Shown here: piece after piece, positions 44,646 through 62,248 of the stretch
Layout: every line of letters begins with the position of its first letter
Position numbering within the stretch: position 1 is the first letter of the stretch
DNA from: Glaciimonas sp. PAMC28666
GTDB taxonomy: Bacteria; Pseudomonadota; Gammaproteobacteria; Burkholderiales; Burkholderiaceae_D
Reading direction: 5' to 3'
DNA length: 64,000 bases
Assembly (NCBI RefSeq): GCF_016917355.1
Contig: NZ_CP070304.1
Location: 310,001-374,000 of the forward strand
The notes under the pieces: model-generated
Seen by the model: only the letters and a program-made list of their open reading frames with translations
What the model was told of the DNA's origin: nothing
Database searches by the model: none
Translations under genes and position numbers: made by a program

Positions 44646-44738
44646 TTTTCTGCCCGGCAGGAACCACGACGCCAGAGGGCATGAGAAATGTGCTATCACT
44701 CCGGCAGCACGACACTGCCGCGTCCAGGCGTCATCGCT

Positions 44739-45971: not shown

Positions 45972-46738
45972 GCCATACCTCCATTAACTGAAATCACCTG
46001 GCGCGTGATGTAGGCCGCGTCAGTGCCCATCAGGAAACTGACCGTCGCAGCGACTTCCTCCGGTTGTCCCAGGCGTCGGGCTGGAATCATTTTCAGCGCT
46101 TCTTCAAGTGGAACGTCTGCGATCATGTCAGTTTCGATTAAGCCAGGGGCGACACAATTAACAGTAATCTGACGCTTCGCCAGTTCAATCGCCAACGCTT
46201 TGGTAGCACCAATAATGCCAGCCTTTGCGGCGCTATAGTTGACTTGCCCACGATTGCCGATCAAGCCCGATACCGACGCTAATGTTACGATTCGACCAGG
46301 CGCACGACGATGCACCATCGGCATCACCAACGGGTTAAGAACATTATAAAATCCATCCAGATTGGTCTTCAGTACCAGATCCCAATCATCGCCCGACATT
46401 GCCGGGAAAGCATTATCCCTGGCGACGCCGGCGTTGCAGACAATGCCGTAATAGCAGCCATGCTCCGCAACGTCAGCCAACAAAATATCGGACGTGCTCT
46501 GCCGGTCTCCGATATCACATTGCAATACACGGACCTGACGATCCATTGCACGTATGCTGGTCGCCACCGCTTCCGCTGTTTCGCGCTGGCGATGACAATG
46601 TAAAACGATGTCGTAACCGTCCCGCGCCAACCGCAACGCAATCGCCTTCCCGATTCCGCGACTTGAGCCAGTCACCAGCACCGTCTTGTTTAAGCTGCTC
46701 AATTTGCTATTTTCTGCAGTCATTGTTGCCAACGTCAT
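45968..46738 (-). CDS. 3-ketoacyl-ACP reductase (FabG-like) of the aryl polyene cluster
   Basis: SDR-family ketoreductase, 256 residues. It has the NADP motif VTGSSRGIGKAIA, the NAGVA motif, the catalytic Ser (TLASVSGLIG), Tyr/Lys (NYSAAKAG) and the C-terminal ISVNGGMA. It reduces the beta-keto group made by the KS before dehydration. Its start overlaps the upstream dehydratase stop by four bases, and its stop overlaps the next KS, so these are coupled. Confidence 0.93.
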   Translation of the reverse strand: MTLATMTAENSKLSSLNKTVLVTGSSRGIGKAIALRLARDGYDIVLHCHRQRETAEAVATSIRAMDRQVRVLQCDIGDRQSTSDILLADVAEHGCYYGIVCNAGVARDNAFPAMSGDDWDLVLKTNLDGFYNVLNPLVMPMVHRRAPGRIVTLASVSGLIGNRGQVNYSAAKAGIIGATKALAIELAKRQITVNCVAPGLIETDMIADVPLEEALKMIPARRLGQPEEVAATVSFLMGTDAAYITRQVISVNGGMA

Positions 46739-47391
46739 TCCACTTTTCCTTCAAGAAAACCAGTCACATCATGCGGTTGAAATACGGTGATGGTGGCACG
46801 CACCAAAACCTGCGCAGTATCGAGAGTATCGTCAATGGCATCAAACGGCCGAGTTTCACCTGTCAGCCCGTGATTTCTATCTGCATATCTGGGTGCCTCA
46901 TAGATCGCACATTCAAATGATCCCAATCCATTGTCCGCCTGCATGAGTCGTTTTACCACTATCCACAGGACAACACCCGGCGGAAAAAGTGCACAGCTCA
47001 CGTCATAACGTCGGGTTCCCAACAGGAATCCCACTTTCGCAGGTTCGCCGCGCAAACGGCCCTTATGACCGGCAAAAGCCGCGATAGATTGGGCCATATA
47101 TTCAATACCGATCCAACTTCCGACGCCGTCGGGCCCCATAAATAAGCTGTCCGGTCTGATCACTACTTCGGCGCACAAGCGCTCTTCATCAGCGGCCACA
47201 AAGCGATCAAGCATTACCATTGTGCCCGAATGCGGCAATAAGCTTTCAATACTCGGTGCCAGCAGATCGCTTGAGGCCGGCGGCGATGCCACTATTGGTA
47301 ACACCGGGGGCTCCGCTCCACCAGATTTAACCTTGGGTTCGTTCTCATCCAGATCATAACTTGCCATTTTAATATTTACTTGAACACTCAT
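46735..47391 (-). CDS. Hot-dog 3-hydroxyacyl-ACP dehydratase of the aryl polyene cluster
   Basis: Second dehydratase of the cluster (ApeP-like), 218 residues. The core LLPHSGTMVMLDRFV, WIGIEYMAQSIAAFAGHKG and VGFLLGTRRYDV follow the FabA/FabZ-like hot-dog group in pigment clusters, with a His in the PHSG motif and Glu in IEYMAQ. The first 45 residues are Pro/Ser-rich and look unstructured. It begins with an ATGA overlap on the upstream KS. Confidence 0.85.
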   Translation of the reverse strand: MSVQVNIKMASYDLDENEPKVKSGGAEPPVLPIVASPPASSDLLAPSIESLLPHSGTMVMLDRFVAADEERLCAEVVIRPDSLFMGPDGVGSWIGIEYMAQSIAAFAGHKGRLRGEPAKVGFLLGTRRYDVSCALFPPGVVLWIVVKRLMQADNGLGSFECAIYEAPRYADRNHGLTGETRPFDAIDDTLDTAQVLVRATITVFQPHDVTGFLEGKVE

Positions 47392-48653
47392 TCACGCCCC
47401 ATCACCAACGCTGCGTTCGCGCCACCGAACGCAAAGGAGTTACTCAAGGCCCAGCGCAATGGACGTCCAAGGCGGTACCCTTCAGGCAGGAGATTCAACG
47501 CTGGCAAATTGCTATCTTTTACGCCGTCCCATAAATGTGGCGGCAAATAGCCGGTCCGGTTGTCATCCTGCATGGCCAGCCAGCACAAGCCTGCTTCGAT
47601 AGCGCCCGCCGCTCCCAGGGCATGGCCGGTATAGGCCTTGGTCGAACTTGCCGCCACCCGGTCGCCAAAAAGATCATGTACCACCCGACTCTCCATTGCA
47701 TCATTTTGCTGTGTGGCGGTGCCATGTAAATTGATGTAATCAATTTGCGTGGCATCGACATTGGCCCGCCTTAAAGCCTGCGCAATGGCAATGCGGGCAC
47801 CGCCGCCCTCTGGATCCGGTGCAGAAATATGATAACCATCAGAAGACTCGCCCCACCCGCGCAACGCCACTGTCGCAGGCTTTGCACTCATCAGAAACAA
47901 TGCCGCCCCTTCTCCAATATTTATACCGTCACGGTTAGCGCTAAATGGTGTGCAACGTGTCTTGCTGACCGATGCCAGCGCACTAAACCCGGCAATCGTG
48001 AAAGCGCACAACGAATCGACTCCGCCAGTAAGCACCACGTCCGATAACCCCATCTGGATGAGTCGCGCTGCGCTCGCCATTGCTTTGGCACTGGAGGCAC
48101 AAGCACTGGAATGGACATAAGCCGGGCCAGTAACGCCTAATACCTCCGCTAGCATCGCCGCGGCAGATCCCATTTCCTGTTGACTATAAGTGAAGCTTGC
48201 CGGAAATTTTTTATCAATTCTGTCCTGATCAATTGCTTGTTCATTCGCGGCCCGACCGTTCGCGGCCCGACCATTCGCGGACCGACCGTTCGTGGCCCGA
48301 CCATACGCAAACTGAAACGCGGCTTCGCTCTCGGCAATCCCTGAGGTGCTGGTGCCAAGCACAATCGCTATACGGTGGGGACCATATAGTCCGATGGCGG
48401 CATCCACCGCCGGACGAATCTGCTTCAATGCAGCCAGCAGCAATTGATTGTTACGGCTGCGATGCGCCAACGGATACACACCCGACTCCATCTGCGGCAG
48501 AGCGCTGTCCACGCAACCTACTGGCACCGCACCAGAGGATGAATAACGATCCGTCATGACGACGCCGCTTTGCCCGGCAAACAGGCGCTGACGGATCGCG
48601 GCATGGGTATCGCCGAGCGCACAAATAAGTCCGAGGTCGTTTAAATAAAACAT
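47388..48653 (-). CDS. Beta-ketoacyl-ACP synthase with repeat insertion, aryl polyene cluster
   Basis: Condensing enzyme of 421 residues. Catalytic Cys in HSSACASSAKAM, His in NLHGTATQQND and YTGHALGAAGA, and SNSFAFGGANAALVMGRE at the end are intact, so it should be active. About residues 116-137 are a tandem insertion NGRAANGRAAN-like (units of five residues) coded by four 15-bp repeats (48245-48304). It falls between the N-terminal strand GTSTSGIAESE and FTYSQQEMGSAA, a region that is a surface loop in KS enzymes. It could be tolerated or could affect partner contact. Confidence 0.9.
   Translation of the reverse strand: MFYLNDLGLICALGDTHAAIRQRLFAGQSGVVMTDRYSSSGAVPVGCVDSALPQMESGVYPLAHRSRNNQLLLAALKQIRPAVDAAIGLYGPHRIAIVLGTSTSGIAESEAAFQFAYGRATNGRSANGRAANGRAANEQAIDQDRIDKKFPASFTYSQQEMGSAAAMLAEVLGVTGPAYVHSSACASSAKAMASAARLIQMGLSDVVLTGGVDSLCAFTIAGFSALASVSKTRCTPFSANRDGINIGEGAALFLMSAKPATVALRGWGESSDGYHISAPDPEGGGARIAIAQALRRANVDATQIDYINLHGTATQQNDAMESRVVHDLFGDRVAASSTKAYTGHALGAAGAIEAGLCWLAMQDDNRTGYLPPHLWDGVKDSNLPALNLLPEGYRLGRPLRWALSNSFAFGGANAALVMGRE
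48245..48304 (+). repeat. 15-bp tandem repeat inside a ketosynthase gene
   Basis: Four units of TTCGCGGCCCGACCG type, each differing at zero to two bases. The unit of 15 keeps frame and encodes Asn-Gly-Arg-(Ala/Ser/Thr)-Ala-like blocks. Confidence 0.95.
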
Positions 48654-48667
48654 ATTCGCATTATTAA

Positions 48668-49273
48668 TTATGGTGTAACGGTTCCAGTCGGTCCGGGTGC
48701 GGTTGCGCTTTCTCCGCCCACCGACTCAATTATCAGCCGGTAGTGATAACGCAGATTCGTTAATTCCACCTTACCACCCCACGGTGAGGCATTACCGTAA
48801 ATAATGACAGTTACCGGTACATCATGCAGCAGTAAAGTGCGACGCAAACCCTGCTGTTCAATTTTCCATCCATCGGGCAACGCCTGCCGTATCGCCTCGA
48901 CCGGCCACAGGGTTAGTTGGGTATCTTCCAACACGTCCTCCGCCCGAACCTGCGCTGGCAGCATTGGATGGCGCCACGATTCGAGATTTTTACCATCATA
49001 ATGCAAAGTCAGTACACGCTGACCTAACGCCAGTCCGACCATATTAAGTTGCTGAGGATCAATTTCTAATGCGGCATCCAGTTGATCGGTCCGACCGTTT
49101 CGTTCTACCGTCAAATGCTGTTGCAGGCTGATTGTGGCCCCCAATGAAGCCGGTGAGAGTTTCAAACCCAACCGCTGTGGCGGGGCCGCCAGTTGCGTGC
49201 TGGCGCACCCCGCCATCAGCACTATTAGCATCGTCAGGGCTAACGACCGCTTGACGATTCCGATTAAGCGCAT
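48668..49273 (-). CDS. DUF3261 lipoprotein of the aryl polyene cluster
   Basis: A 201-residue envelope lipoprotein with lipobox VLMAGC. The body QQHLTVERNGRTDQLDAALEIDPQQLNMVGLALGQRVLTLHYDGKNL and VTVIIYGN, KVELTNLRYHYRLIIES matches the DUF3261 group, which is found almost only in aryl polyene and related pigment clusters. It likely helps move or hold the lipid-linked pigment in the outer membrane. It overlaps the flavoprotein stop by 10 bases. Confidence 0.85.
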   Translation of the reverse strand: MRLIGIVKRSLALTMLIVLMAGCASTQLAAPPQRLGLKLSPASLGATISLQQHLTVERNGRTDQLDAALEIDPQQLNMVGLALGQRVLTLHYDGKNLESWRHPMLPAQVRAEDVLEDTQLTLWPVEAIRQALPDGWKIEQQGLRRTLLLHDVPVTVIIYGNASPWGGKVELTNLRYHYRLIIESVGGESATAPGPTGTVTP

Positions 49274-50496
49274 ATCTCCTCCAACGCTTTCAGGCGACGC
49301 TTACTTTCGCGGACATACGGATTGGTCTCGTCCCATGCATAACCAGCCAGAATGGCTGAGATCATCCGACGAATCTCAGGTTGCTGATGTTCATGAAAAA
49401 TAACGTCTTGAAAGCCACCGGTGTACCAGGATTCAACAAACGTCCGGAAAGTATTAACGCCTTTTTTGAGGGGAATCGCATACTCGTTTTCCCAATCGAC
49501 CTGCACACCGCTAAAATGCTTCTGCAATACCTGAGCGGCCAAACTGGCAGATTTTAATGCAATGGTGACGCCCGACGAAAACACCGGATCGAGAAATTCC
49601 CCAGCGTTACCCAGTAACGCATAGCCTTTTCCCCATAACGATTTTACATTGGCCGAATAGCCAACAATCGAACGTGCCGGTGTATCCCAGCGCGCGTTTG
49701 CCAGCAATTCGCGCGAGGCCGGATCTTCATTTACCAGCGCTCGGAGACGTTCCGTGTCCGAACCTTGATACTGATCCAGAAATGCCGTTTTAGCCACTAC
49801 ACCGATCGAACAACGGCCGCCTGCAAACGGGATCAGCCAATACCACACGTCACAATGTTCAGGATGGACGGTGACACGGATCTTGTTGCGATCAAAGTCT
49901 GGCGCCGTAATTCCGTCTTCAATATGCGTAAAAATAGCACCACGAACCGGAAAATTGGAAGGTGTTTCCAAATCCAGCAAACGCGGTAAGATACGACCGA
50001 ATCCGCTTGCGTCAAGAATAAACCCGGCTTCAACCTGATACTCGTTGCCGTCCGCCTGACGCACCGTAAGGCGCGGTTTATCGCCGTCCAGATCGACGGC
50101 CGTAACCGCGTGCTGAAAGCGAATTTCGGCACCCTGCCGTTGAGCTTGTTGCGCCAGCAGATGGTCGAAGTTGGCGCGTTGCACCTGATACGTTGTACCC
50201 CAGCCAGTTGAATGTTTGTCACGAAAGTCGAAAGCGGTATAGCGCTCGCCACGGACAAAAGCCGCACCGTTCTTATATTGAAATCCCGCTTCCACGACGA
50301 CCTGCAACATGCCAGCCTGCTCAAGGTAAGCCATACTTTGCGGAAGTAAGCTCTCACCAATACTAAAGCGCGGAAACTGTTCACGCTCGAGCACCAGGAC
50401 CTGTCGACCTTGTTGCCGCAATAACGCAGCAGCGACCGAGCCCGCCGGACCGGCACCGATCACGACAACATCACAATTTTCAACTTTTAAGTCCAT
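49264..50496 (-). CDS. NAD(P)/FAD-dependent oxidoreductase (halogenase/GGR-like) of the aryl polyene cluster
   Basis: A 410-residue flavoprotein. It has the FAD motif VVIGAGPAGSVAAALL, FPRFSIGESLLPQS, and the later GNAGEFLDPVFSSGVTIALKSASLAA that is shared with flavin-dependent halogenases and geranylgeranyl reductases. The lysine and WxWxIP motifs of true halogenases are not seen (WYWLIPF is present instead). Such proteins are common in aryl polyene clusters; the reaction is not proven and may be ring or chain oxidation. Its start is 13 bp after the MMPL stop. Confidence 0.85.
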   Translation of the reverse strand: MDLKVENCDVVVIGAGPAGSVAAALLRQQGRQVLVLEREQFPRFSIGESLLPQSMAYLEQAGMLQVVVEAGFQYKNGAAFVRGERYTAFDFRDKHSTGWGTTYQVQRANFDHLLAQQAQRQGAEIRFQHAVTAVDLDGDKPRLTVRQADGNEYQVEAGFILDASGFGRILPRLLDLETPSNFPVRGAIFTHIEDGITAPDFDRNKIRVTVHPEHCDVWYWLIPFAGGRCSIGVVAKTAFLDQYQGSDTERLRALVNEDPASRELLANARWDTPARSIVGYSANVKSLWGKGYALLGNAGEFLDPVFSSGVTIALKSASLAAQVLQKHFSGVQVDWENEYAIPLKKGVNTFRTFVESWYTGGFQDVIFHEHQQPEIRRMISAILAGYAWDETNPYVRESKRRLKALEEICA

Positions 50497-50509: not shown

Positions 50510-52936
50510 TCACAAACGTGAGTCTTGATTAATTTGACTAAAACACGGGGCTATCAGCCACACAATCGCGATGCCAACCAACATCGTGAATCCAAACGCG
50601 TGCAGTGGTGGTGTACCGGATAGCGCAAGCAATCCGAATGACAATAACGCGCTTAGTGCCGACAAACAAACCGCCAGCCAGGCAAACCGCCCGCCCGGGT
50701 CTCGATGATCAGCATTTTCTTGCAAGAAAATGCCGTAATCCACACCCAACCCAAGGATCAGCATCAGCGCCAGCATATGAAACATCTGCAAGGGTTGACC
50801 AATAATGCCGAGCAATGCCAGCGTTGCGATGCTGGCGAGAGCCGGTGGCAGTACCACCCGCCATCCGGCGTACCGGTACCGGGCAAACAGCAGTAAATAA
50901 ATGGCCACATAAGCGCCTAGCAATACGATGCCCATGTAATGTCGGTAATCGCCCAGCACGGTAGAAATTTCGCTCACCTTGTCCACCCATTGGACGCCAT
51001 CGAGCGACGCCGCCGTTTTTTTCAACAAAGGCAAGTTGGCATAATTATTCAAGCCACGTAGGGCCACGATGCTAGCGTAAGTGTCGCCCTGTGTGCCCGC
51101 AACCCGGCCCAGCCAGAGATAGCGAGACGGTTCACTGGCCGCTGTCTTTAAAAACGCTTCAGGCGTCAATACATTGCCAACTGAGGCCGCCTGATTTGAT
51201 CCTGCCAGCGTTCGCTCACGCATCTGCGCGATCCAGGCCTGGTCCTCACCAAGCTGGGCGGCGAGCGCTTTGAGTGGTCCATCCGGTTCGAATAGCGCGC
51301 GCTCTGTCAATGCACGATTCGCGCTCTGGGCGCGTATCGAAGGTACCCAATTTGACATTGCCTGATAACCGCTTATTACGTGCTGCGCGATTAACGGCTC
51401 CAGCCGTACGCTAAGCGCCTCTTCGCGCTGCAATACTTGCTCCGCGCTGCTTCCACGCACCAGATAAAATTGTACCGGCGTAGGGGCATCAAGTATTTTT
51501 GATAATTTAATCTGATCGTCTAACAGTATTTTTGGCGGTTTTTGCAATGACCGAATATCGTCATTGACCTGCAGTTGTGTCAGTCCGTACACCACGAACA
51601 CACCAAATAATATTGCCGCTACCAGTGTGCCCGGATTGCGCCGTAATAGCGGCCAGTGACGACGACTGGCGCCGCTCCAGTCGGCAAACCGCGTCCCTCG
51701 CAGCGTCGATGCCTGTACCAACATGGGAAACCAGCAGATCACTGTCAGCCACGCGAATATCAGACCAAGCACGGAAAACACCGCCATCTGTCGCAATCCA
51801 GGGAACGGGGTTAAAGCCAGTCCCACATAGCCGATCACTGCTGCCACCAACGTCAGCAATAACCCGGGCAGCAAACGCCGCAATAATTGTTGCGATGGCA
51901 AAGCTTTATCACTGCCTGCACGGCTACACAGAAAATAGATACCGTAATCTTGCGCGACGCCAATCAAACTCGCACCGAATACCAAGGTCAATAGATGCAC
52001 GCGTCCAAATATGAGCCAGCAAATCGAAAATGCACCGAGACAACCAATAGCAATCGACAGCACGATCAGGCCGATAGTTCGGAATGTGCCAAAGGTCAGC
52101 CACATCAGCAATATGATGCCGAGCAAGGATCCGACGCCGATGGTTGACATCTCGTTGCTCGCCTGAGCGCTGGCAGCGCCGGCGTGCAATATTACCCCAG
52201 CGCTAATTAACTCTATCTTCGGTACTGCCAGCCGTGCCGCCTTGGCCGCAGTACCAAGCAGCGGCAATACAGCTTGCTGCGTCGCCATCGAAAACGCGGG
52301 TTGGCGCAAGGTCATCAAAAGCATGGCATATTGACGACCGTTGGCTTCGACGAATAAGTAACCATCGCGTGGCCTTACCGGTGTTTCCTGTGCACGTGTC
52401 TGCACCCAACCACTGAAGAGTCCAAAAGGATCATCCTGCCATGCGCTCAATTTCGGTCCAGAAAATGGACTGTATAACTGTCTTAAGGCGGACTCCACCC
52501 AATAGCTCGGCGGTTTTTCTTGCAGCAATTTTTGCTGCTCGGCGGTCAGCAGACTAAGCCTGTTTTTCTGCGATGGTCCCAACCAGTCTGTTTGCGCCTG
52601 CGCAGACATCGGCGCGGTTGCCTCGAACAAATCAGGACGCTTTTTCAGTACCGCCGAATAGGCATCGGCGGCGGCACGCGCTTGCCCCCAGTCGTCGCTG
52701 CCCACCAGCACTATAACGCGCTGTTGGGATGAATCAACCATATGCGTAAATGCCTGCTGTAACACCGGATCACGTTGTTCCACTGGTAATAACGCGAGAA
52801 TATCGGTATCGGGCACGACCTTTTCTACCAACCAAAGGTAGGCGTTATGACTCAATATCAGCCCGACTGCCAGAAGCCACAGCCATGCCAGCCTTCTTGG
52901 CCACTCACCAGTTTCATTACCTGCCCTGCTAATCAA
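50510..52936 (-). CDS. MMPL-family RND exporter of the aryl polyene cluster
   Basis: Large inner-membrane transporter, 808 residues, with two MMPL halves: membrane helices near 15-35, then a periplasmic domain, a helix bundle (about 260-420) with LTLVFGASLIGVAQDYGIYFLCSRAG, a second periplasmic part and a final bundle with ALMLILGLGVDYGIFLQENA. Both bundles carry the GxxxDYG motif with Asp for proton coupling. The start codon is TTG (52936), overlapping the upstream gene by eight bases; no other in-frame start is near. It likely pumps the lipid-linked pigment to the periplasm. Confidence 0.93.
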   Translation of the reverse strand: MISRAGNETGEWPRRLAWLWLLAVGLILSHNAYLWLVEKVVPDTDILALLPVEQRDPVLQQAFTHMVDSSQQRVIVLVGSDDWGQARAAADAYSAVLKKRPDLFEATAPMSAQAQTDWLGPSQKNRLSLLTAEQQKLLQEKPPSYWVESALRQLYSPFSGPKLSAWQDDPFGLFSGWVQTRAQETPVRPRDGYLFVEANGRQYAMLLMTLRQPAFSMATQQAVLPLLGTAAKAARLAVPKIELISAGVILHAGAASAQASNEMSTIGVGSLLGIILLMWLTFGTFRTIGLIVLSIAIGCLGAFSICWLIFGRVHLLTLVFGASLIGVAQDYGIYFLCSRAGSDKALPSQQLLRRLLPGLLLTLVAAVIGYVGLALTPFPGLRQMAVFSVLGLIFAWLTVICWFPMLVQASTLRGTRFADWSGASRRHWPLLRRNPGTLVAAILFGVFVVYGLTQLQVNDDIRSLQKPPKILLDDQIKLSKILDAPTPVQFYLVRGSSAEQVLQREEALSVRLEPLIAQHVISGYQAMSNWVPSIRAQSANRALTERALFEPDGPLKALAAQLGEDQAWIAQMRERTLAGSNQAASVGNVLTPEAFLKTAASEPSRYLWLGRVAGTQGDTYASIVALRGLNNYANLPLLKKTAASLDGVQWVDKVSEISTVLGDYRHYMGIVLLGAYVAIYLLLFARYRYAGWRVVLPPALASIATLALLGIIGQPLQMFHMLALMLILGLGVDYGIFLQENADHRDPGGRFAWLAVCLSALSALLSFGLLALSGTPPLHAFGFTMLVGIAIVWLIAPCFSQINQDSRL

Positions 52937-53585
52937 GCGCAGCCCCTTCTTCGGCGGTCATTGCATTGGGACCGCTTTGTACGCCGGAGAAGGTAATTTC
53001 CGTGCGGTCACCGCTGGCTTCGTTAATCGTCACACTTTTGACTGTGGTGCCACCGGTCAGGGCTAGCGTGCCGATGGCTTTGGCAAGTGCTGGCTGACGG
53101 GCTTTCAATGCGACTTTCCAGCTATTGCCCTGAATGCTGCCGTCGATGTCGAATAAGGATTCCAATTGACTTAAATCACCCGCCACCAGAGAAAACATCA
53201 CACTGTTGATCATTCTGACTACCGGTTCCTGTTTGGCGTCAAGCCGCATGGCAACATGGTCACCCTGCATTTGCACGATCTCGTCACGCTTGAGGCGCAA
53301 TGTATTTGGGAACGGCTGCAAGGTGCGCCATAAAACACCTTTACCATTCACCACACAAAACCGGCCGTTGGAGAGTAATGGCTTTTTAATTCCCATCAGC
53401 TGCTTGGTCTGATCGAAGCGACCGCACAAAACCGCCGGTTTTTCCAGCATTTCCTGAATTTTTGCGATAGGTGCAGCGGCCAACGCAGAAACGGAGATTG
53501 AGGCGGCGACCACGATCAGAAGGCCGGATCGGACAACGAGGGTAAAGATGGATGACAATATGACGGATGACAATAAACGCTTCAT
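52929..53585 (-). CDS. LolA-like outer membrane lipoprotein carrier protein of the aryl polyene cluster
   Basis: A periplasmic carrier-fold protein of 218 residues. The start is ATG 53585 (MKRLLSSVI), in ATGA overlap with the thioesterase stop; the frame is open upstream but is out of place. Two successive hydrophobic stretches form the signal region, ending in ALAAAP. The mature part CGRFDQTKQLMGIKKPLLSNGRFCVVNGKGVLWRT and FPNTLRLKRDEIVQM resembles LolA, which carries lipids across the periplasm. In this setting it probably accepts pigment-lipid from the MMPL pump. Confidence 0.87.
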   Translation of the reverse strand: MKRLLSSVILSSIFTLVVRSGLLIVVAASISVSALAAAPIAKIQEMLEKPAVLCGRFDQTKQLMGIKKPLLSNGRFCVVNGKGVLWRTLQPFPNTLRLKRDEIVQMQGDHVAMRLDAKQEPVVRMINSVMFSLVAGDLSQLESLFDIDGSIQGNSWKVALKARQPALAKAIGTLALTGGTTVKSVTINEASGDRTEITFSGVQSGPNAMTAEEGAALD

Positions 53586-54010
53586 GGTGCGGCAATTCCT
53601 AATTTTTGAAATAACACAGCAGGCGATGCAAAACACATTTCACGGGTTGCGATGGCGACCGCAACTTGCGTGGTGGTGCCTTTGGTCAGGCGCTGGCCGC
53701 TGGCCCTATCGGTGATTAAATAATCTATTTTCAGCCGGTTTTCCCACTCGACAACACTCGCCCGGACAGTAATGCATTGACCGAATGTGGCTGGGTGCAC
53801 ATAACGAAGATGGAGATCGATCACCGGCCAGGCGTAGCCCGACTCCTTCATTTCCGAATAGTTATACGCTATGGAATCGAGCAGCGCGCAACGGGCCTGC
53901 TCCATATACTTAATATAATTACCATGCCAGACAATTTCCATCGGGTCCAGATCATAAAACTGTATTTGCAAGGCGATCTCGGCCGACCAGCGGCTTGCTT
54001 TTTTATGCAT
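53582..54010 (-). CDS. Acyl-CoA thioesterase (4-hydroxybenzoyl-CoA type hot-dog) of the aryl polyene cluster
   Basis: A 142-residue hot-dog thioesterase. The catalytic segment FYDLDPMEIVWHGNYIKYMEQARCALLD has the Asp of the YbgC/4HBT family (DxxxxVWHxxY). It could release the finished chain or remove stalled acyl groups from the ACPs. It overlaps the lyase stop by eight bases and the LolA start by four. Confidence 0.88.
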   Translation of the reverse strand: MHKKASRWSAEIALQIQFYDLDPMEIVWHGNYIKYMEQARCALLDSIAYNYSEMKESGYAWPVIDLHLRYVHPATFGQCITVRASVVEWENRLKIDYLITDRASGQRLTKGTTTQVAVAIATREMCFASPAVLFQKLGIAAP

Positions 54011-55610
54011 ATAAATCCCATGCTTTCGAATTGATACGCACCAACAACAAACGTAAATCAGGCTCCAACATACGATCTTCTTTGATCACCTCTATGTCTT
54101 TCGCCAAAGCTTCCAGCATCCCCTCTAGATTTTCTTGAGGTTTGGCCGTTGCATCTACCCGACAGCGCAACCAAACACCTTGGCGGACGCTAATCAACAA
54201 CGCTGCAATGACTTGCTCGGTTAGCTGTAAAACCCTTAAGCAATCACGCGCAGCAATCGTTCCCATGCTGACTTTATCTTGATTATGACATTCGGTAGAG
54301 CGCGAAAACACCGACGCTGGCATAGTCAGTTTTAGCGCTTCTGCAGTCCAGGCAGACGCACTGATCTGTAGCGCTTTCAAGCCGTGATTGATACTCGCCC
54401 GCGGGCCTTCGGCCCCTGAAAGGTTGGGTGGCAAACCATGGTTATAGCGGCTATCGACTAATAACGCCATCTGCCGGTCTAACAAATCAGCAACATTGGC
54501 CACAGCATTTTTCATGCTGTCCATGGCAAAGGCAATATGCCCACCATAAAAGTGACCGCCATGCAGCACCCGTTCATTTTCGCCATCTATGATTGGATTA
54601 TCGTTGGCGCTGTTGAGTTCATTTTCAATTGATTGCCGCATCCAGGTCAGCGCGTCGGCGAGCACGCCGATGACATGCGGGGCGCAGCGGATCGAATATC
54701 GATCCTGCAAGCGCTGTTCATTGCGTGGTGCCTCGGGAGCGGGTAAATCCTGCCGCAACCATGCGGCTACCTGTTGCTGCCCCACATGGGGTTTGACGGC
54801 AAACAGCGCCTCGTCAAAGTGATGTGCATTACCATCCAGTGCAAAGCTCGACATTGCGGTGATTCTGGTTGCGATGCGCACCAGATATTCTGCGCGATCA
54901 TACGCAAGACAGGCCAGCGCCGTCATCACCGCCGTGCCGTTCATGATTGCCAGACCTTCCTTGGGACGCAAACGCAGCGGTGTCATTCCAACCGCCGCCA
55001 ACGCTTCTGCCGCCGGTACTTTAACGCCATCGCGCCACACTTCGCGCTCACCGCACAGCACGGCTGCCAGGTAGGATAAGGGCGTCAGGTCACCGCTGGC
55101 ACCAACTGATCCCTCGGCTGGTATTAATGGCAACAAGTCTTCCTTCAGCAGGCGTGTAATCTGCTCGAGCAGGCCGACGCTGACGCCAGAATAACCTTTA
55201 CTTAGTGATGCCAGACGCACTGCCAGGATGGCCCGCGTCTGGGCAGGCGTAAAATGCTCGCCAAGTCCACAGCCGTGGTACGTGTACAAGTGGTGCGGCA
55301 ATTCCGCCACCAACTCAGCCGGAACGTTAACCGTACAGGAATCGCCATAGCCGGTCGTCACTCCGTAAATAGTGCCATCTTCCCTCAACAGACGGTCCAA
55401 AAAATCCGCGCCGCGCGTGATCGCCGCAAGAAACACGGGATCGGTCGATAGTTCCACGCGGGCTGAGCCAGAAGCAATTCCGACGATATCTTCTATCGTT
55501 AATGGCGCACGATCGAAACAGACACTGCGCAGCAGTGCATCCGGTGCATCCGGTGCATCCGGGGTGAATGTATCAGAGACGGCGTTCAAGTCATCCGTTG
55601 GTATTGTCAT
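54003..55610 (-). CDS. MIO-type aromatic amino acid ammonia lyase of the aryl polyene cluster
   Basis: HAL/PAL/TAL-family lyase of 535 residues that removes ammonia from an aromatic amino acid to give an arylacrylate, the probable starter of the polyene. The MIO-forming Ala-Ser-Gly lies in GSVGASGDLTPLSYL (about residues 168-170). Other family residues are YGVTTGYGDS, the NANDNP-like LNSANDNPIID, and QDRYSIRCAPHVIG. The selectivity site aligned to His-Leu of tyrosine lyases and Ser-His of histidine lyases reads Tyr-His (HHLYTYHGCGLGE). Substrate Tyr, Phe or His cannot be set from sequence. A 9-bp repeat gives APDAPDA near the N-terminus (55535-55561). Overlaps the LPLAT gene by 20 bases. Confidence 0.92.
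   Translation of the reverse strand: MTIPTDDLNAVSDTFTPDAPDAPDALLRSVCFDRAPLTIEDIVGIASGSARVELSTDPVFLAAITRGADFLDRLLREDGTIYGVTTGYGDSCTVNVPAELVAELPHHLYTYHGCGLGEHFTPAQTRAILAVRLASLSKGYSGVSVGLLEQITRLLKEDLLPLIPAEGSVGASGDLTPLSYLAAVLCGEREVWRDGVKVPAAEALAAVGMTPLRLRPKEGLAIMNGTAVMTALACLAYDRAEYLVRIATRITAMSSFALDGNAHHFDEALFAVKPHVGQQQVAAWLRQDLPAPEAPRNEQRLQDRYSIRCAPHVIGVLADALTWMRQSIENELNSANDNPIIDGENERVLHGGHFYGGHIAFAMDSMKNAVANVADLLDRQMALLVDSRYNHGLPPNLSGAEGPRASINHGLKALQISASAWTAEALKLTMPASVFSRSTECHNQDKVSMGTIAARDCLRVLQLTEQVIAALLISVRQGVWLRCRVDATAKPQENLEGMLEALAKDIEVIKEDRMLEPDLRLLLVRINSKAWDLYA
55535..55561 (+). repeat. 9-bp tandem repeat at the 5' end of the ammonia lyase gene
   Basis: Three exact copies of GTGCATCCG. 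Each unit encodes Pro-Asp-Ala in frame, at about residues 17-25, ahead of the catalytic fold. Confidence 0.9.
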
Positions 55611-56550
55611 AAAGTGATAAATGCCAAAAGTCGTAAAAGTTAAACCACTGCAACGGCGCTTTCAAGCAATAGTGCTCCAGTCGCTCGGCATACGCGGCGG
55701 CTAGTTCACTCAAGACCTGATTGCGATGCTTGCGTGGCAAATGAATGGCATCCCGAAACAACTCAAAGTGACATTCGGAACGACCGCCGATGGTCAATGT
55801 AAACAACAGGTAAACCGGGCATTGCAGTACGCTAGCCAGGACGTAGGGGCCAATCGGAAACGGGGCGGCCTTCCCTAAAAAAGTGGCTTGCGCCACGCGT
55901 GGGTGGGGCGACACGGGAATACGGTCACCGGCAATGGCAACAAATTCTCCCTGCGCCACTTTCTCAGCTAACAACATCGCCATCACGGGGGTCAGTTCAG
56001 TCACCTGCATCAAATTCAACTGACTATCGGGATCGAGCCTGGCCAGTAAACGGTTGAATGCCTTTGCATGCTTGGTATGAACCAACACGGTGATACGCAA
56101 GCCGCTACGCTGCCGCGAAAGCACCCGACATAACTCAAGATTGCCGAGGTGGGCGCAGATCAAAAGGCCGCCGCGCTTAGCCTCAAGATTCTCGCGGATT
56201 AATTCTTTACCGGTACTCGTGACATCTTGCGTCTTGAACAAGCCGCCCCATAACAGCAGCTTGTCCAGAATACTTTCGGCGAACGCCCCAAAATGCTGGA
56301 ATACGCCGGGTAATCCGGATCGAGGTTGCTGATTGTCGCTGTTCAGACCCGTTGCCCGCACCCGCCACAGATAATCCTTCGATGCATGTCGTGCGATGGG
56401 CTTGGTCGCCAGATAGAAACCGAGAATGGGATATAACACTAAGCGGAAAGGCGTACGCCCAGCGATGCGATATAGCCAAAACATCAACCGCATGCCGACC
56501 ACAAAACTGGATTCATTAATTTGCGCCCAATGACGATGTGACCCGCTCAC
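55591..56550 (-). CDS. LPLAT-family acyltransferase of the aryl polyene cluster
   Basis: A 319-residue lysophospholipid/lipid A-type acyltransferase. The start is GTG 56550, overlapping the ligase stop (GTGA). A membrane-associated N-terminus (FWLYRIAGRTPFRLVLYPILGFYLATKPIAR) precedes LICAHLGNLELCR, which replaces the canonical HX4D with HLGNLE, as in the LpxL/HtrB-like LPLAT group, and RIPVSPHPRVAQATFLGKAAPFPIGPYVLA. It probably transfers an acyl or polyene group to the lipid anchor. Confidence 0.87.
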   Translation of the reverse strand: MSGSHRHWAQINESSFVVGMRLMFWLYRIAGRTPFRLVLYPILGFYLATKPIARHASKDYLWRVRATGLNSDNQQPRSGLPGVFQHFGAFAESILDKLLLWGGLFKTQDVTSTGKELIRENLEAKRGGLLICAHLGNLELCRVLSRQRSGLRITVLVHTKHAKAFNRLLARLDPDSQLNLMQVTELTPVMAMLLAEKVAQGEFVAIAGDRIPVSPHPRVAQATFLGKAAPFPIGPYVLASVLQCPVYLLFTLTIGGRSECHFELFRDAIHLPRKHRNQVLSELAAAYAERLEHYCLKAPLQWFNFYDFWHLSLYDNTNG

Positions 56551-59372
56551 TTTCTACCCCGTCGATGGGAGAATTTTCTCACCAGCAAAGTCGGCGCACG
56601 CAATAACATGCCAACAAATAAGGTCGCATGCATACGAGAAATAAGCAGGTTATCCAACACCATCCGAAAATGCGAGACTCCGTCGCTCGGGTAGCCGACC
56701 CTGGTCGGAAAATTGATTATCTGCATCCCCTCCCAATACAGCCTGACAATGACGTCGGTATCAAAATCCATGTGCTGACCAATTGTTCTCCGGTGCACCA
56801 AGGCCACAAACGGGGCGAGTGGATACACCCGGAACCCGCACATCGAATCTTTGATATCTAACGACAACGTGTTGATCCACACCATGACATGTGTCAGATA
56901 GCGCGCGTAAAAGCGCACCTTTGGCACGCTGTCATCATACTGTGGCACACCAGCAATTAACGCCTCAGGCCGAGCCGCAGCCTGCGCCAGAAAGAGCGGA
57001 ATATCATCGGTACAATGCTGCCCGTCTGCATCGATTTGCAAAGCATGGGTATAGCCCGTCTGCGCCGCATGACAAACGCCGGTCACCACTGCCCCACCCT
57101 TTCCCAAATTTGCGGCATGGCGCAGCAGAGTGATCTGACCTGGATGCGCCATTGCCAGCGCATCTAATACCGCCGCGCAGTCCGTCGAACTTCCGTCGTC
57201 GACTAATATACACGGCAGTCGATGCGAAAGAATCGCCGCCACCACCGAACCGATGGCATGGGCATGATTGAAGACCGGAATCACGGCACAGGGATTAAAG
57301 CCGGTAATATTAGATTCATTTTTATGAAAACCCATATTATCGCCGTGTGTTATGGGTGTTGATTTATCTAGGCTGGCGATTGTAGTGCCTGGTTGCTGCC
57401 TCAGATTGTTTTCACTATTCCCAACCTGCCGCTGAGTTTTACTTATCAGATCGCTGTTATGGCGTTGCACCTCAGCTGCCGGCGCCAGTCCGAACAGAAT
57501 GCGTCCGCTTGCATGCTGTCCTTCGTCCGATGTAATACTAAACGTCAGAGAAGATTTTTGTACATCATGCATCAGTGTGAGTTGCAGCACTGCCCCCGGC
57601 ATGACCACACGCTGAAACTTAAGCGCATGCATACTCAAAAAACAGGGGGCTAGAGGTAAATACTCTCGACCATATGCTATCGCCCAGTCAACCTGCGCAA
57701 CGCCGGGCAATATCGGAGAACCGTCGAAATGGCCTTTGAAATACAACAGATCAGGCGGCACAGTGAGTTCCAGCGAGACACGGGATGCCGCCATATCCCT
57801 GTCCAACAAACGCACATTCGGTTTCGTTATACGCTGTGTTACAGGTAGGTTCAACGGAAGAGAGTTCTCCACTTCCCCGGCGGAAGATAACAAATCGGCA
57901 CGCGTTGTTTTGCCCTGCGCATTGACCGGGAATTTGACGAGATAGTGCCAACTGCGCGGTAGTGCAATCGGCTCAATCGCATGCGCGATACTCTCGCGCA
58001 ACCTTCGATTCAAGGACAATTTTCCCTGCTCTGCGAGGATGAGACGTCCAGCATCGTTCAGTACAATGAAGGCAGCAATTTTCTGGCGGCGCTGATGCGG
58101 TCCATCATCCATTAACAACACGCGCGCATCGGCGACCAGGCCGGAGGCTTTTAATTGCCCTTCGATCAGGTTGAGTGAAATTCGCTTCTCTTCCACTTTA
58201 ACAATGCGGTCAATGCGACCGGTCAACACAAAATGGTTTTCATCTGTCGCTTGCGCCTGATCTGCCAAACTAAACCAAGCGTCGTCTGGAAGATGCGGCG
58301 AACGAATTTCCAGGACGGAATCGGTTAAGCCAATACGCCAGGTAATCGCAGGCATGACGTTCCAACTTTCATCTCGCTGCGCATGAGAGTGAGCGCTCGC
58401 CCGAATAGATCGATCAAAGGACCGTTGACGCCATCCAACCCCACCGGTTTCCGAACTGCCGTAGACCTCAATCGGGACATGACCAAGATGTTGCCCTGCC
58501 GCTTGCGCAACCTCCTCGGACAAGGGGCCACCGGAAGAAAAAACTGCTTGTAACGCATGCAACGATTCTGGCTGCATTGATGCTGGAATCCGCTTTAAAT
58601 GAGCGGGACTGGAAACGAGTATCGCGGGCCGATCAGCTATCCTGCGCAATAATGGACGTAGTTCTTCGAGAAATGCGATTTGTTGGGCGTGAATGGGACG
58701 TCCGGCAGTCAAGGGCCACAATACCTTGAATAGCAGGCCGTAAATATGTTGATGCGACACGGTGGCAATAACGTCAGCACCACCACCGATCACGTGTCCG
58801 AAAAGAGCTTCCAGCGTGGTGATCTCCGTCGATAATTGAGACAATTTTTTAACGACTGCCTGCGGCTCGCCGGTGCTTCCCGATGTATAAATCACTAAGC
58901 CCGGAAAGTCCGGTGACAGAGGTTTGAAGTCATAACGATCGGCAGCATGAACGTAGTGCGAAAACTGGCGCGGATCCAGAAGATCATCCACATTCACATT
59001 CGCCTGCGTTGTTTTCGGCAGCGTCAGCGGCAGATAGCGCTCCGAAAAATCGCCCACAAAGCCATCAACCACCGTCGTTAGCGCGGCACAAGTCGCTGGC
59101 AATATATCGCCCGGAAGATAAATGATTTTATCCGCTTGCCATGCGCCAAACAAAGCGCAAGAAAATTCAGCACAATCGGAGAGATACAACGCAAAAGAAG
59201 CCCCCGGTGTCTGTAAGAATACTGTTCGCCACTCGTCAACACGCGCCAAAAAGTACGCTCGATCAAGGCGTTCGCCATCACGCCATGCGAACGGACGTTC
59301 ACTGTGCGGAATGGCAATGTCTGATACCACTGGCCCACTTAGCAAGGACAACAGATCAATAAAATCAGACAT
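56547..59372 (-). CDS. Fused AMP-ligase / hot-dog dehydratase / family 2 glycosyltransferase of the aryl polyene cluster
   Basis: A 941-residue three-domain protein. Residues about 1-505 are an acyl-AMP ligase: LVIYTSGSTGEPQAVVKK (P-loop), VEVYGSSETGGVGWR and TGRIDRIVKVEEKRISL; this should activate the aryl-acid starter. About 515-640 is an ApeI/FabZ-like hot-dog dehydratase with LLYFKGHFDGSPILPGVAQVD, catalytic His near 546. About 690-935 is a GT2 glycosyltransferase: AVIPVFNHAHAIGSVVAAI, LVDDGSSTD, LGKGGAVVTG, ALQIDADGQH (DxD) and a C-terminal membrane-associated helix region. In described clusters these are usually separate (ligase, dehydratase, GT). Reading frame is open throughout. An internal ATG (near 57335, MGFHKNESN) could give a free GT. 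Start overlaps the COG4648 stop. Confidence 0.9.
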   Translation of the reverse strand: MSDFIDLLSLLSGPVVSDIAIPHSERPFAWRDGERLDRAYFLARVDEWRTVFLQTPGASFALYLSDCAEFSCALFGAWQADKIIYLPGDILPATCAALTTVVDGFVGDFSERYLPLTLPKTTQANVNVDDLLDPRQFSHYVHAADRYDFKPLSPDFPGLVIYTSGSTGEPQAVVKKLSQLSTEITTLEALFGHVIGGGADVIATVSHQHIYGLLFKVLWPLTAGRPIHAQQIAFLEELRPLLRRIADRPAILVSSPAHLKRIPASMQPESLHALQAVFSSGGPLSEEVAQAAGQHLGHVPIEVYGSSETGGVGWRQRSFDRSIRASAHSHAQRDESWNVMPAITWRIGLTDSVLEIRSPHLPDDAWFSLADQAQATDENHFVLTGRIDRIVKVEEKRISLNLIEGQLKASGLVADARVLLMDDGPHQRRQKIAAFIVLNDAGRLILAEQGKLSLNRRLRESIAHAIEPIALPRSWHYLVKFPVNAQGKTTRADLLSSAGEVENSLPLNLPVTQRITKPNVRLLDRDMAASRVSLELTVPPDLLYFKGHFDGSPILPGVAQVDWAIAYGREYLPLAPCFLSMHALKFQRVVMPGAVLQLTLMHDVQKSSLTFSITSDEGQHASGRILFGLAPAAEVQRHNSDLISKTQRQVGNSENNLRQQPGTTIASLDKSTPITHGDNMGFHKNESNITGFNPCAVIPVFNHAHAIGSVVAAILSHRLPCILVDDGSSTDCAAVLDALAMAHPGQITLLRHAANLGKGGAVVTGVCHAAQTGYTHALQIDADGQHCTDDIPLFLAQAAARPEALIAGVPQYDDSVPKVRFYARYLTHVMVWINTLSLDIKDSMCGFRVYPLAPFVALVHRRTIGQHMDFDTDVIVRLYWEGMQIINFPTRVGYPSDGVSHFRMVLDNLLISRMHATLFVGMLLRAPTLLVRKFSHRRGRK

Positions 59373-59940
59373 TCCGTGGCTCGGCTAACTGGCGTCGATG
59401 CCGGCGTTTAAACGCTATTCTGACCATAAATTCAACCGAAAATAGAATCCCCATCGCGACATAAGCGACTATGCCGTTATAAATGCTCCAGATAGCAGGC
59501 GATGCCCACAGCGCTGTGATCAACGCCAAGGTACCGTTCACGACAAAAAACACGCACCACACCTGGGTTACACGCCGGGTATAACCAATCGCGTATTCCG
59601 GTAACTGTGGATCGGTTAAACGCGCCATCCGCTCGACGATCGAGGGCGGCGCAATCAGGCTGTAGGCGAAGGCACACAACATGCCCATGTTGACCAATAC
59701 CGGATACAGTTTTAGCGGTAGCAATGCATTGTTCCAAATCGCGAAAGCCGCTAACAACAGTGCCGCCACCAGAAGCCAGCGACTAGCCTTGCTTAACTTG
59801 ATCATTGGCAGGCGCATTGCGACCGCGACTATTAATAACAATGAAAGCACACGGGGAGACACTCGACCGTGCGCCAACCAAATAGCGAGCGGATAGAGCA
59901 AGGTAATTATCAAGGCCAATACGGTTAAGCCCATCTGCAT
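59365..59940 (-). CDS. COG4648-type membrane protein of the aryl polyene cluster
   Basis: Integral membrane protein, about 191 residues, with some six hydrophobic spans (LTVLALIITLLYPLAIWLA, VLSLLLIVAVAMRL, WLLVAALLLAAFAIW, YPVLVNMGMLCAFAYSLI, VWCVFFVVNGTLALITALWA, IYNGIVAYVAMGILFSVEFMVR). The conserved GYTRRVTQVWC and EFMVR match the uncharacterised COG4648 group regularly linked to pigment clusters. Start set at ATG 59940; a TTG at 59997 extends the frame. Function unknown; perhaps a lipid or sugar handling step. Confidence 0.82.
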   Translation of the reverse strand: MQMGLTVLALIITLLYPLAIWLAHGRVSPRVLSLLLIVAVAMRLPMIKLSKASRWLLVAALLLAAFAIWNNALLPLKLYPVLVNMGMLCAFAYSLIAPPSIVERMARLTDPQLPEYAIGYTRRVTQVWCVFFVVNGTLALITALWASPAIWSIYNGIVAYVAMGILFSVEFMVRIAFKRRHRRQLAEPRNV

Positions 59941-60020
59941 CCGGCGCTGCAAGAGACAGGCCGAAATAGACGAAAAGAAGCGCGCCTGAGAACCCAATGA
60001 AAACTGAGCCGGAAAACGTT

Positions 60021-60320
60021 TTATTGTGTCTCCTCCAGCAATGCGGCTACCGCATCAACCACGTCCTGCACGGTGCGGACGGCTTTAAATGCGTCCGGTT
60101 GTAAGCGTTTTCCCGTAAACTGTTTCAGTTTGACGACCAGATCAACTGCGTCAATGCTGTCAATATCAAGGTCTGTGTATAAGTTGGCCCGTGGTGTGAT
60201 GTTTGCTTTGTCGATCTCAAACATGTCGTGCAAGACGTCAACAACCCAAGCATAGATTTCCTCTTTCGTCATACTCGCCGCCGCAACTCCTGCGCTTGCC
60301 ACTTTTATCGATGCCGTCAT
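60021..60320 (-). CDS. Acyl carrier protein (second of two) of the aryl polyene cluster
   Basis: A 99-residue acyl carrier protein with the phosphopantetheine Ser in DLDIDSIDAVDLVVKLKQ and the helix LYTDLDIDSI. The N-terminal 16 residues are Ala-rich; a Met at position 17 (MTKEEIYAW) may be the true start. It lies nine bases after the other ACP. Two ACPs, one for the starter/elongation and one of another role, are typical of aryl polyene clusters. Confidence 0.93.
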   Translation of the reverse strand: MTASIKVASAGVAAASMTKEEIYAWVVDVLHDMFEIDKANITPRANLYTDLDIDSIDAVDLVVKLKQFTGKRLQPDAFKAVRTVQDVVDAVAALLEETQ

Positions 60321-60329
60321 CTCAGACCT

Positions 60330-60590
60330 TCATTTTTTTCTGTTGCTGGCAATCATCGCGGCTAACGCGCGTACCGAAGCAAAATGGTTACGCGTTTCCG
60401 CCGAATCTGCCGATAATGAAATACCGTAACGCTTCTGGATTGCCACACCAAGTTCGAGTGCATCAATCGAGTCTAGTCCAAGTCCATCGCCAAATAGTGG
60501 CGCATCCGTATCGATTTCCGCCGTTGTAATATCCTCAAGTTGCAAGACATCAATAATGACCTGCTTTACCTCGGTTTCAAGCTGCTCCAT
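60330..60590 (-). CDS. Acyl carrier protein (first of two) of the aryl polyene cluster
   Basis: An 86-residue ACP with Ser in GLGLDSIDALELGVAIQKRYGI, the modified residue. The start MEQLETEVKQVIIDVLQLEDI is standard. It overlaps the LPLAT gene by 14 bases. Confidence 0.94.
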   Translation of the reverse strand: MEQLETEVKQVIIDVLQLEDITTAEIDTDAPLFGDGLGLDSIDALELGVAIQKRYGISLSADSAETRNHFASVRALAAMIASNRKK

Positions 60591-61359
60591 CGGAATGACT
60601 TTCTTTTCTAAAATAATTCTGCAAATGGGCAGTCAAGTGTCTTGCTGCCAACGTATCATTTCCCGCCGCCACAACGAAGGCACGGACGTCGATATCTTCT
60701 TTTATCTCAATAGTGAAATGTGCCATGTCTGGCGGCACTTGCCACCATTTTTCGCCTTTTCCCAGTGTTGGTGGCAAACAATGGATAACTACCGGTGTCA
60801 CGTTTGAGCAACACCGAATTGCAATATTTGCAGCACCACGTTTGAAAATGATAGGTCCATCAGTCCGCGTGCCTTCGGGGAAAATGATCAAATTGCTGCC
60901 CCGCTGCAAAGAGGCAATCCCGTCGGATAATAAACCCGTGCCAGTATCGTTCCGTATATAACCGGCTGCACGTGCCGATCCTCGAATAAAAGGATTATCC
61001 CAAAGCAGGCTTTTCACAACGCAATCGGCGTCCCTAACAAACGCCATCAGGAAAACGGTATCCAGCAAAGTGGGATGATTTGCCAAAATCAGCAAACCTT
61101 GCCGCTGTAACCGCTCCAAGCCAATAATGTCGTAGCGCAGAACGCCTATACCGCGCATGAATCCTATAAACGTGTGAAACATCACGCGGATGATCTGGCG
61201 TGCGACTAATGTCCTCGATTCGCGCTCCTTGACAAATAAATTCATCAAGGGAAAAATGACTAATCCCATCCATAATCCGACGACCCCGAACACCAGAAAA
61301 CTTAAGCCGGTTGCCGCGATGCGCCAATAGCGGTTCATCCGTTTGACGACGCTACTCAC
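60577..61359 (-). CDS. 1-acyl-glycerol-3-phosphate acyltransferase-like protein of the aryl polyene cluster
   Basis: PlsC-type LPLAT of 260 residues. A start of GTG at 61359 overlaps the upstream stop (GTGA). Membrane segment LSFLVFGVVGLWMGLVIFPLM, the HX4D motif NHPTLLDTVF and FPEGTRTDGPIIFKRGAANIA are present. Together with the other LPLAT it probably builds the lipid to which the pigment is attached. Confidence 0.9.
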   Translation of the reverse strand: MSSVVKRMNRYWRIAATGLSFLVFGVVGLWMGLVIFPLMNLFVKERESRTLVARQIIRVMFHTFIGFMRGIGVLRYDIIGLERLQRQGLLILANHPTLLDTVFLMAFVRDADCVVKSLLWDNPFIRGSARAAGYIRNDTGTGLLSDGIASLQRGSNLIIFPEGTRTDGPIIFKRGAANIAIRCCSNVTPVVIHCLPPTLGKGEKWWQVPPDMAHFTIEIKEDIDVRAFVVAAGNDTLAARHLTAHLQNYFRKESHSDGAA

Positions 61360-62207
61360 TCGTCACCATCGCGAGCCGCAAGGATGTCATTGTGTTGAGG
61401 CATTACGGCGTGGCTATGTCGCCACCACCAGCGACGGTTGTCGACTAATCGGATCAACTCGCGATCATGTCGAAGTTGAAACGCTAGGATATCCAGCCCA
61501 GCCGGTTGACGAATAGTTGGGTTGATCGTATCAGTCTTATTAGCTAGGCAAACGTACTCTTCCGCCGGATGGTTTTCCATCGCACCCCAGGTCAGGGATA
61601 CTGTTCCTGTACCATTCTTAACAGGTGGCTTGACAAGCCAAGCCCAGGCGAACGGTTGATCTGCGCAATCCCGGAATTCGCTAAATTCATCCGGCAGCAG
61701 ACCATCATAGACGACCAATAATACTTCGGCCGCTCCATCCGCCAATAGCCCACAAGCTTCGATCAATGCATGCTCGACGCCACTGTCACCTGCAGATAAG
61801 GCACTGTGATTTGCCTGATCGTGGCGCGCGATCGAAAACAAGCCCGCGGTTGCATTGTGTACCGACAGACTAAAAGAAGTCGGGGACAACGGTACTTCTT
61901 TTACCAGATCCTGCAGCAACCCCACCGAGCGAGCGCATTCGCCGTGCCGCGAACAAAATACCGTGGGAACGTCTACTCGTCCATCGAGACAGCGATAAGC
62001 AACCTCCAGAGCCATTTTTCCAACCGCTCCAGCCCGCCGCCTCAACATTGCAGGCATCGATAAGACCCGCGGTTCCGAATCACCTTGAATGAGAAAACGA
62101 CTCTGCGCCCAAGTGCGCCAGTCACCGTCTGTTTCCAGTCCGGGTGCCCAGGCAGCATGCGCTGCGATTGAGAACTGCACTCCATTGATTGCGCGGTCTG
62201 GACTCAT
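61356..62207 (-). CDS. Ketosynthase-like N-terminal protein lacking the active Cys (chain-length factor type), aryl polyene cluster
   Basis: A 283-residue protein of the Ketoacyl-synt_2 (KS N-terminal) group, the first gene of the cluster. The site of the catalytic Cys is Ala in LSVHNATAGLFSIARHD, so it cannot condense and likely pairs with an active KS as a chain-length/helper factor (ApeC-like). The later His residues of a full KS are missing because it ends after about 280 residues. Start set at ATG 62207 (MSPDRAING); ATG 62225 is also possible. Confidence 0.85.
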   Translation of the reverse strand: MSPDRAINGVQFSIAAHAAWAPGLETDGDWRTWAQSRFLIQGDSEPRVLSMPAMLRRRAGAVGKMALEVAYRCLDGRVDVPTVFCSRHGECARSVGLLQDLVKEVPLSPTSFSLSVHNATAGLFSIARHDQANHSALSAGDSGVEHALIEACGLLADGAAEVLLVVYDGLLPDEFSEFRDCADQPFAWAWLVKPPVKNGTGTVSLTWGAMENHPAEEYVCLANKTDTINPTIRQPAGLDILAFQLRHDRELIRLVDNRRWWWRHSHAVMPQHNDILAARDGDE

Positions 62208-62248
62208 TTCACCATTTCCCAACATCTATCGAGTTGTTTCACAAAAAG

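Follow-up and report, generated by a model that had tools for sequence, protein, structure and literature searches.

This locus raises the question of whether three enzymes of aryl polyene synthesis can be carried on one polypeptide and, if so, how such a protein arose and what it would change. The window, a 64,000-nucleotide stretch of Glaciimonas sp. PAMC28666 (contig NZ_CP070304.1, positions 310,001 to 374,000), contains on its minus strand a single ATG-started frame of 941 residues that runs without a break through an adenosine monophosphate (AMP) ligase, a dehydratase and a glycosyltransferase. We find the fusion to be real, inherited and limited, among the loci examined, to the genus; the pathway is a known one, and the new part is the joint between the dehydratase and the glycosyltransferase. 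In the account that we regard as likely, two closely spaced genes, apeHI and a glycosyltransferase gene, became one frame, most simply once, within Glaciimonas, leaving three tethered enzymes in one chain.

Three enzyme domains in one reading frame

The continuous frame, the three domains and the domain limits had all been proposed in an earlier sequence-only reading, and each was recovered by open reading frame calling, Pfam and our own profiles. The fusion is laid out as follows.

56547..59372, minus strand: 941-residue fusion of AMP ligase (ApeH), ApeI-type dehydratase and glycosyltransferase family 2 (GT2; the glycosyltransferase half of ApeJ), assigned from the open reading frame, Pfam, our own profiles and AlphaFold
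57888..59300, minus strand: AMP ligase domain, residues 25-495 (PF00501; own profile)
57489..57821, minus strand: ApeI-like dehydratase domain, residues 518-628 (PF22818; own profile; nearest solved chains 3esi and 6qsr)
57300..57488, minus strand: dehydratase-glycosyltransferase linker, residues 629-691 (63 residues), with a predicted local distance difference test score (pLDDT) below 50 at 633-689 (AlphaFold)
56571..57299, minus strand: GT2 domain, residues 692-934 (PF00535; own profile)

All three Pfam assignments clear their cut-offs: the AMP-binding model matches residues 56-315 (E 2.5e-20, 73 bits against 29.9), the ApeI-like model residues 528-612 (E 1.2e-13, 51.8 bits against 28.5) and Glycos_transf_2 residues 696-822 (E 6e-14, 52.8 bits against 23.3), while the general FabA model falls below its cut-off on the dehydratase domain (20.8 against 23). 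The residues that we take to be catalytic are retained as well. Lys488 of the ligase, which also has the adenylation motifs, and His548 of the dehydratase are each kept in 23 of the 23 aligned rows that contain the respective domain; Asp781 and Asp783, the Asp-x-Asp pair of the glycosyltransferase, are kept in 18 of 18 rows and Asp725 in 17 of 18. By score and by motif residues alike, the domains belong to the AMP-binding enzymes, the ApeI-like dehydratases and glycosyltransferase family 2. Each keeps the motifs of its separate relatives, the three corresponding activities are predicted, and nothing in the domains points to new chemistry.

An AlphaFold model of the fusion, built from 38 aligned rows, has a mean pLDDT of 86.0 and a predicted template modelling score of 0.67, with 620 of the 941 residues at 90 or above. 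The three domains are confidently modelled as separately folded units. Runs of three or more residues with pLDDT below 50 occur at 122-127, 503-513, 633-689 and 939-941, and because the third of these spans nearly all of the linker, the glycosyltransferase probably hangs on a flexible, disordered tether of about 57 residues; the helix drawn at 632-656 has little meaning at such confidence. A fold search of the PDB with the whole model returned, among the best 50 matches listed, adenylate-forming enzymes or proteins containing one, as expected given that the ligase is the largest domain.

The unusual joint is that of dehydratase and glycosyltransferase

To place the fusion among its relatives, we searched four overlapping sets of genomes: 145 from the family, 399 from the order, 369 from the class and 398 from the phylum. 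Counting the window's own genome, matches were found in 72 of the 145 (E 1e-25), 48 of the 399 (1e-50), 49 of the 369 (1e-35) and at least 83 of the 398 (1e-30), and loci were examined for 48 of the 72, all 48, 25 of the 49 and 48 of the at least 83 matching genomes, respectively. In total 157 loci were assembled, comprising 153 fetched stretches (46, 47, 20, 20 and 20), three loci from a pattern search and the window; L004 was left out as a duplicate of L046 (G. immobilis). Fifteen of the 157 lack one of the three domains within the stretch, leaving 142 complete loci for counting.

Across these loci the domain order of the apeH-I-J stretch is kept while the gene borders shift, such that ligase, dehydratase, glycosyltransferase and acyltransferase occur in five groupings. 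The commonest, in 99 of 142, is a ligase-dehydratase followed by a separate glycosyltransferase and a separate acyltransferase; in three more the first two are seen with no acyltransferase. A ligase-dehydratase accompanies a glycosyltransferase-acyltransferase in six loci, separate ligase and dehydratase genes accompany one in 23, and all four are separate in eight. Ligase, dehydratase and glycosyltransferase share one protein in three loci, all from Glaciimonas, and a chain that also takes in the acyltransferase was found in none of the 142. The assumption of the sequence-only reading that ligase and dehydratase usually sit in separate genes does not hold for relatives, as the two form one protein in 111 complete loci; because they are already joined so often, the ligase-dehydratase joint is what related clusters ordinarily show and only the dehydratase-glycosyltransferase joint is unusual. 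The counts agree with its view that a protein with all three domains is not the usual arrangement, and the search for proteins of the same domain order, which it had proposed, located them, among the loci examined, in two congeners.

Within the genus, three of five genomes carry the fusion, namely the window species (G000), G. immobilis DSM 23240 (G001; locus L046) and G004, and the remaining two (G002 and G003) encode a ligase-dehydratase and a glycosyltransferase as two genes. Glaciimonas thus offers a natural comparison, some of its species having these two pigment genes joined and others having them apart. A pattern search of genome contigs with the window protein, our sole look beyond the phylum, gave four loci, of which that of G. 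immobilis alone is fused. Among the glycosyltransferase matches listed without an examined locus, none has an open frame of at least 790 residues, roughly the minimum for such a fusion. Open frames of about 800 to 1,390 residues were considered as further fusions and rejected: the one in L060 contains stops when translated, and open reading frame checks of the loci yielded none outside the genus. In the open-licence literature, with most subscription papers outside its scope, no title or abstract opening describes a ligase-dehydratase-glycosyltransferase fusion and none concerns Glaciimonas together with aryl polyenes.

The two-domain ligase-dehydratases of the family, order and class match the window protein from its first residue up to about residue 630 and show their joint without the glycosyltransferase in 108 of 142 loci; a separate glycosyltransferase gene follows them, whereas in the window and its two congeners that domain continues in frame. 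The aryl polyene cluster of E. coli CFT073 resembles the window in surrounding gene order and predicted activities, but there, as listed in Table 1 of PMC8253772, ligase (apeH) and dehydratase (apeI) are separate genes and ApeJ is a glycosyltransferase/acyltransferase, so that E. coli joins the glycosyltransferase to the acyltransferase and Glaciimonas joins it to the ligase-dehydratase, leaving the acyltransferase as its own gene. The ApeJ-like arrangement recurs in 29 complete loci, including L087 and L005. In Azoarcus sp. BH72, according to the account in PMC3949708, an AMP ligase and a dehydratase are likewise neighbours in an aryl polyene (arcuflavin) pathway and ArcT has been tested as an AMP ligase; unlike in Glaciimonas, arcT and arcS are separate genes and arcE, for the glycosyl transferase, belongs to a different gene group (PMC3949708).

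Other departures from the common layout were seen. In L006 (7680-8981; uncultured proteobacterium RUG14456) the glycosyltransferase frame extends by some 190 residues in which a LolA-type chaperone seems recognisable by eye, which would make it another kind of glycosyltransferase fusion, and this locus was counted among those with a separate glycosyltransferase despite the extension. A gene that by eye resembles S-adenosylmethionine methyltransferases lies between ligase-dehydratase and glycosyltransferase in L060 (4295-5383), and in 17 loci the gap between dehydratase and glycosyltransferase measures 1,096-1,301 nucleotides.

One chain or a separately made glycosyltransferase

The alternative that survives best accepts the continuous frame but has the glycosyltransferase made also, or mainly, from an internal start, such that the working enzymes would be a ligase-dehydratase and a free glycosyltransferase, as in relatives; we consider this unlikely. 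An internal ATG had been suggested from the sequence before, and for the window the suggestion gains no support. The best internal site there, an ATG at codon 680, pairs with the anti-Shine-Dalgarno sequence at -2.1 kcal/mol, and because this equals the median of the background (-2.1 for 144 in-frame starts) it lends no support to a separate glycosyltransferase; by comparison, the best glycosyltransferase start candidates of 130 non-fused loci have a median of -5.75, with 87.7% reaching -3. The suggestion does better in G. immobilis, where an in-frame GTG within the linker (L046 5575-5577) is preceded by a strong Shine-Dalgarno sequence of -8.5 kcal/mol, a value reached by 1 of the 144 background starts, so that the glycosyltransferase may be made alone in that species too.

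That site is one of several observations that count against a single product. The best internal site of G004 scores -3.3 kcal/mol, which 26% of the 144 background starts reach. In the split relative G003 the ATG overlapping the dehydratase stop likewise has -3.3 (its best candidate is -4.2); because G003 has only this, a weak Shine-Dalgarno site leaves room for separate translation. A glycosyltransferase joined to neither the ligase-dehydratase nor the acyltransferase is, moreover, found in 110 of 142 loci (one of them L006).

Against a free enzyme stand the low values of the window and G004 and the state of the linker, which would not need to stay open if the free glycosyltransferase alone mattered. 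None of the three linkers contains an in-frame stop, for which dinucleotide shuffling gives chances of 0.032, 0.044 and 0.057. In a neutral simulation, a simple equal-rate model in which frameshifts were not counted, all three remained stop-free in 18% of runs at a pairwise distance of 0.25, 3.9% at 0.5, 1.6% at 0.75 and 0.5% at 1.0. Synonymous divergence (dS) between G000 and G004 is 1.12 for the glycosyltransferase and 1.76 for the ligase-dehydratase; such values lie near or past saturation, which, together with the simplicity of the simulation, tempers the argument from open linkers. Nonsynonymous (dN) values for the linkers rest on an alignment without support, because no similarity was detected between them. 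On balance, the window's species probably makes mainly the fused chain, and full-length protein would be expected to accumulate there; in G. immobilis a second, free glycosyltransferase is possible.

Origin of the joint

A tree built from six cluster proteins together unites the three fused species in one clade at a support of 100 (100/99 in a second analysis), joined next by G003 and then by G002. Approximately unbiased tests rejected the groupings G000+G004+G003 (p 0.00013) and G001+G003 (p 0.00004), both picked after the tree had been seen. The fused clade reappears in an rpoB tree of eight genomes at a weaker support of 82, and in single-gene trees of the AMP ligase (98), acyltransferase (83) and glycosyltransferase (79). 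Because both the cluster tree and the rpoB tree group the fused species in a single clade, the simplest history would be a single fusion, from a split ancestor, in the ancestor of the three Glaciimonas species; on the trees built, the split state is ancestral.

The spacing of the genes suggests what such a fusion involved. In non-fused loci without an intervening gene (n = 102, taken before the last 20 stretches were added), the dehydratase end and glycosyltransferase start lie a median of 12.5 nucleotides apart (10-90% range 5 to 57.5), and the two share a frame in 9 of the 102. The corresponding distances in the three fused loci are 174, 186 and 204 nucleotides, indicating that, besides a common frame, the joint took a lengthening of the spacer. 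A locus from another genus of the family, L049 (5228-5400), is near the fused state, with ligase-dehydratase and glycosyltransferase in frame across a 144-nucleotide spacer that contains one stop codon.

The joint could instead have arisen more than once in Glaciimonas, which we hold to be distinctly improbable. The three linkers differ in length (63 residues in the window, 59 and 69 in the others), and no similarity among them was detected, the observed DNA score being reached by 36, 110 and 70 of 300 shuffles; the domains that flank them are 67-85% identical among the fused proteins. Linkers that cannot be aligned are also compatible with separate fusions, which speaks against a single event, as does the lyase gene tree, in which the fused species are not grouped (supports 65-84). 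The acyltransferase and glycosyltransferase on their own, moreover, carry the fused clade only at the values given above, and the fused genomes are just three, from one genus. An unconstrained spacer, however, is expected to lose similarity anyway at such divergence, and both the combined tree and rpoB unite the fused species; we therefore retain one fusion as the simplest history.

That the frame is an assembly or frameshift error, as the sequence-only reading had cautioned, is scarcely credible, because the window genome is one contig of 5,230,360 bases and the identical continuous three-domain arrangement recurs in two independent Glaciimonas genomes, one of them G. immobilis DSM 23240, so that all three would have to share one error, and no support for such an error was found.

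What the joint would change

Under the single-fusion account, an adjacent apeHI and a glycosyltransferase gene corresponding to half of E. coli ApeJ would have merged into one reading frame, in which an open spacer of about 60 codons is retained and serves as a flexible tether. The steps carried out by the chain are assigned by analogy with separate relatives, from roles given in PMC8253772: in the window species the ligase would load the aromatic starter onto an acyl carrier protein, the dehydratase would act during elongation and the glycosyltransferase would attach a sugar while the lipid anchor is being made. As reported there, deletion of apeJ in E. coli leaves late pathway intermediates (PMC8253772), which fits a role for ApeJ in lipid attachment.

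The joint most likely affects the production and physical association of the enzymes and leaves their activities as they are. Its principal effect would be that the enzymes are produced in a fixed 1:1:1 ratio and stay tethered, instead of being translated from neighbouring start sites, and the benefit would lie in tethering or in stoichiometry. The sequence-only reading had proposed that early and late steps may thereby be held close to the membrane. A stronger proposal has the tether create an assembly unit: starter loading, dehydration and sugar transfer would take place on one particle, the polyene lipid would be completed at the site where it was begun, and product length or yield would differ from that of the split species; we rate this as very doubtful. 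If tethering has no effect, the locus would be a clear case of neighbouring genes giving rise to a multidomain protein without functional change.

The surrounding gene cluster

The earlier assignment of the locus to the aryl polyene type is upheld by the neighbouring genes, which follow the E. coli order.

61356..62225, minus strand: ketosynthase-like protein in the apeC place (PF13723)
60577..61359, minus strand: acyltransferase in the apeD place (PF01553)
60330..60590, minus strand: acyl carrier protein (PF00550)
60021..60320, minus strand: acyl carrier protein (PF00550)
59365..59997, minus strand: small protein at the position of apeG (COG4648), its gene sharing 8 bases with the start of the fusion (assigned from place and relatives)
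55591..56550, minus strand: lipid A-type acyltransferase, equivalent to the acyltransferase half of E. coli ApeJ as its own gene, which shares 4 bases with the end of the fusion (PF03279)
54003..55610, minus strand: aromatic amino acid lyase (PF00221, E 1.5e-161)
53582..54010, minus strand: thioesterase in the apeK place (PF13279)
52929..53636, minus strand: LolA-like protein in the apeL place (PF03548)
50510..52936, minus strand: HpnN/RND-like exporter in the apeM place (TIGR03480, E 3.7e-21, below cut-off; no Pfam match)
49264..50496, minus strand: flavin adenine dinucleotide (FAD) enzyme, halogenase/reductase-like (PF04820; below NCBIfam cut-offs)
48668..49273, minus strand: DUF3261 protein in the apeN place (PF11659)
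43827..48653, minus strand: ketosynthase, ApeP dehydratase, ketoreductase, ketosynthase and phosphopantetheinyl transferase (family searches)

Over the span compared, from apeC to apeR, the window thus has the E. coli order, with a lyase, an FAD enzyme and a phosphopantetheinyl transferase in addition, and by predicted gene content and order it qualifies as an aryl polyene cluster, with the exporter match below cut-off. The protein in the apeG place has no match in Pfam or NCBIfam. Across 56300-60100, neither promoters nor terminators exceed chance: two promoter-like sites, both on the plus strand, compare with 3.4 in shuffles, and two terminator-like sites, one on the gene strand just inside the glycosyltransferase (57258-57237), compare with 4.5.

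The FAD enzyme, encoded between the exporter and DUF3261 genes, resembles flavin halogenases and geranylgeranyl reductases and has no counterpart in the E. coli list of PMC8253772. The lyase gene, which lies inside the ape cluster and adjoins the acyltransferase gene in many relatives too, may point to a starter of the cinnamate or coumarate type in place of 4-hydroxybenzoate.

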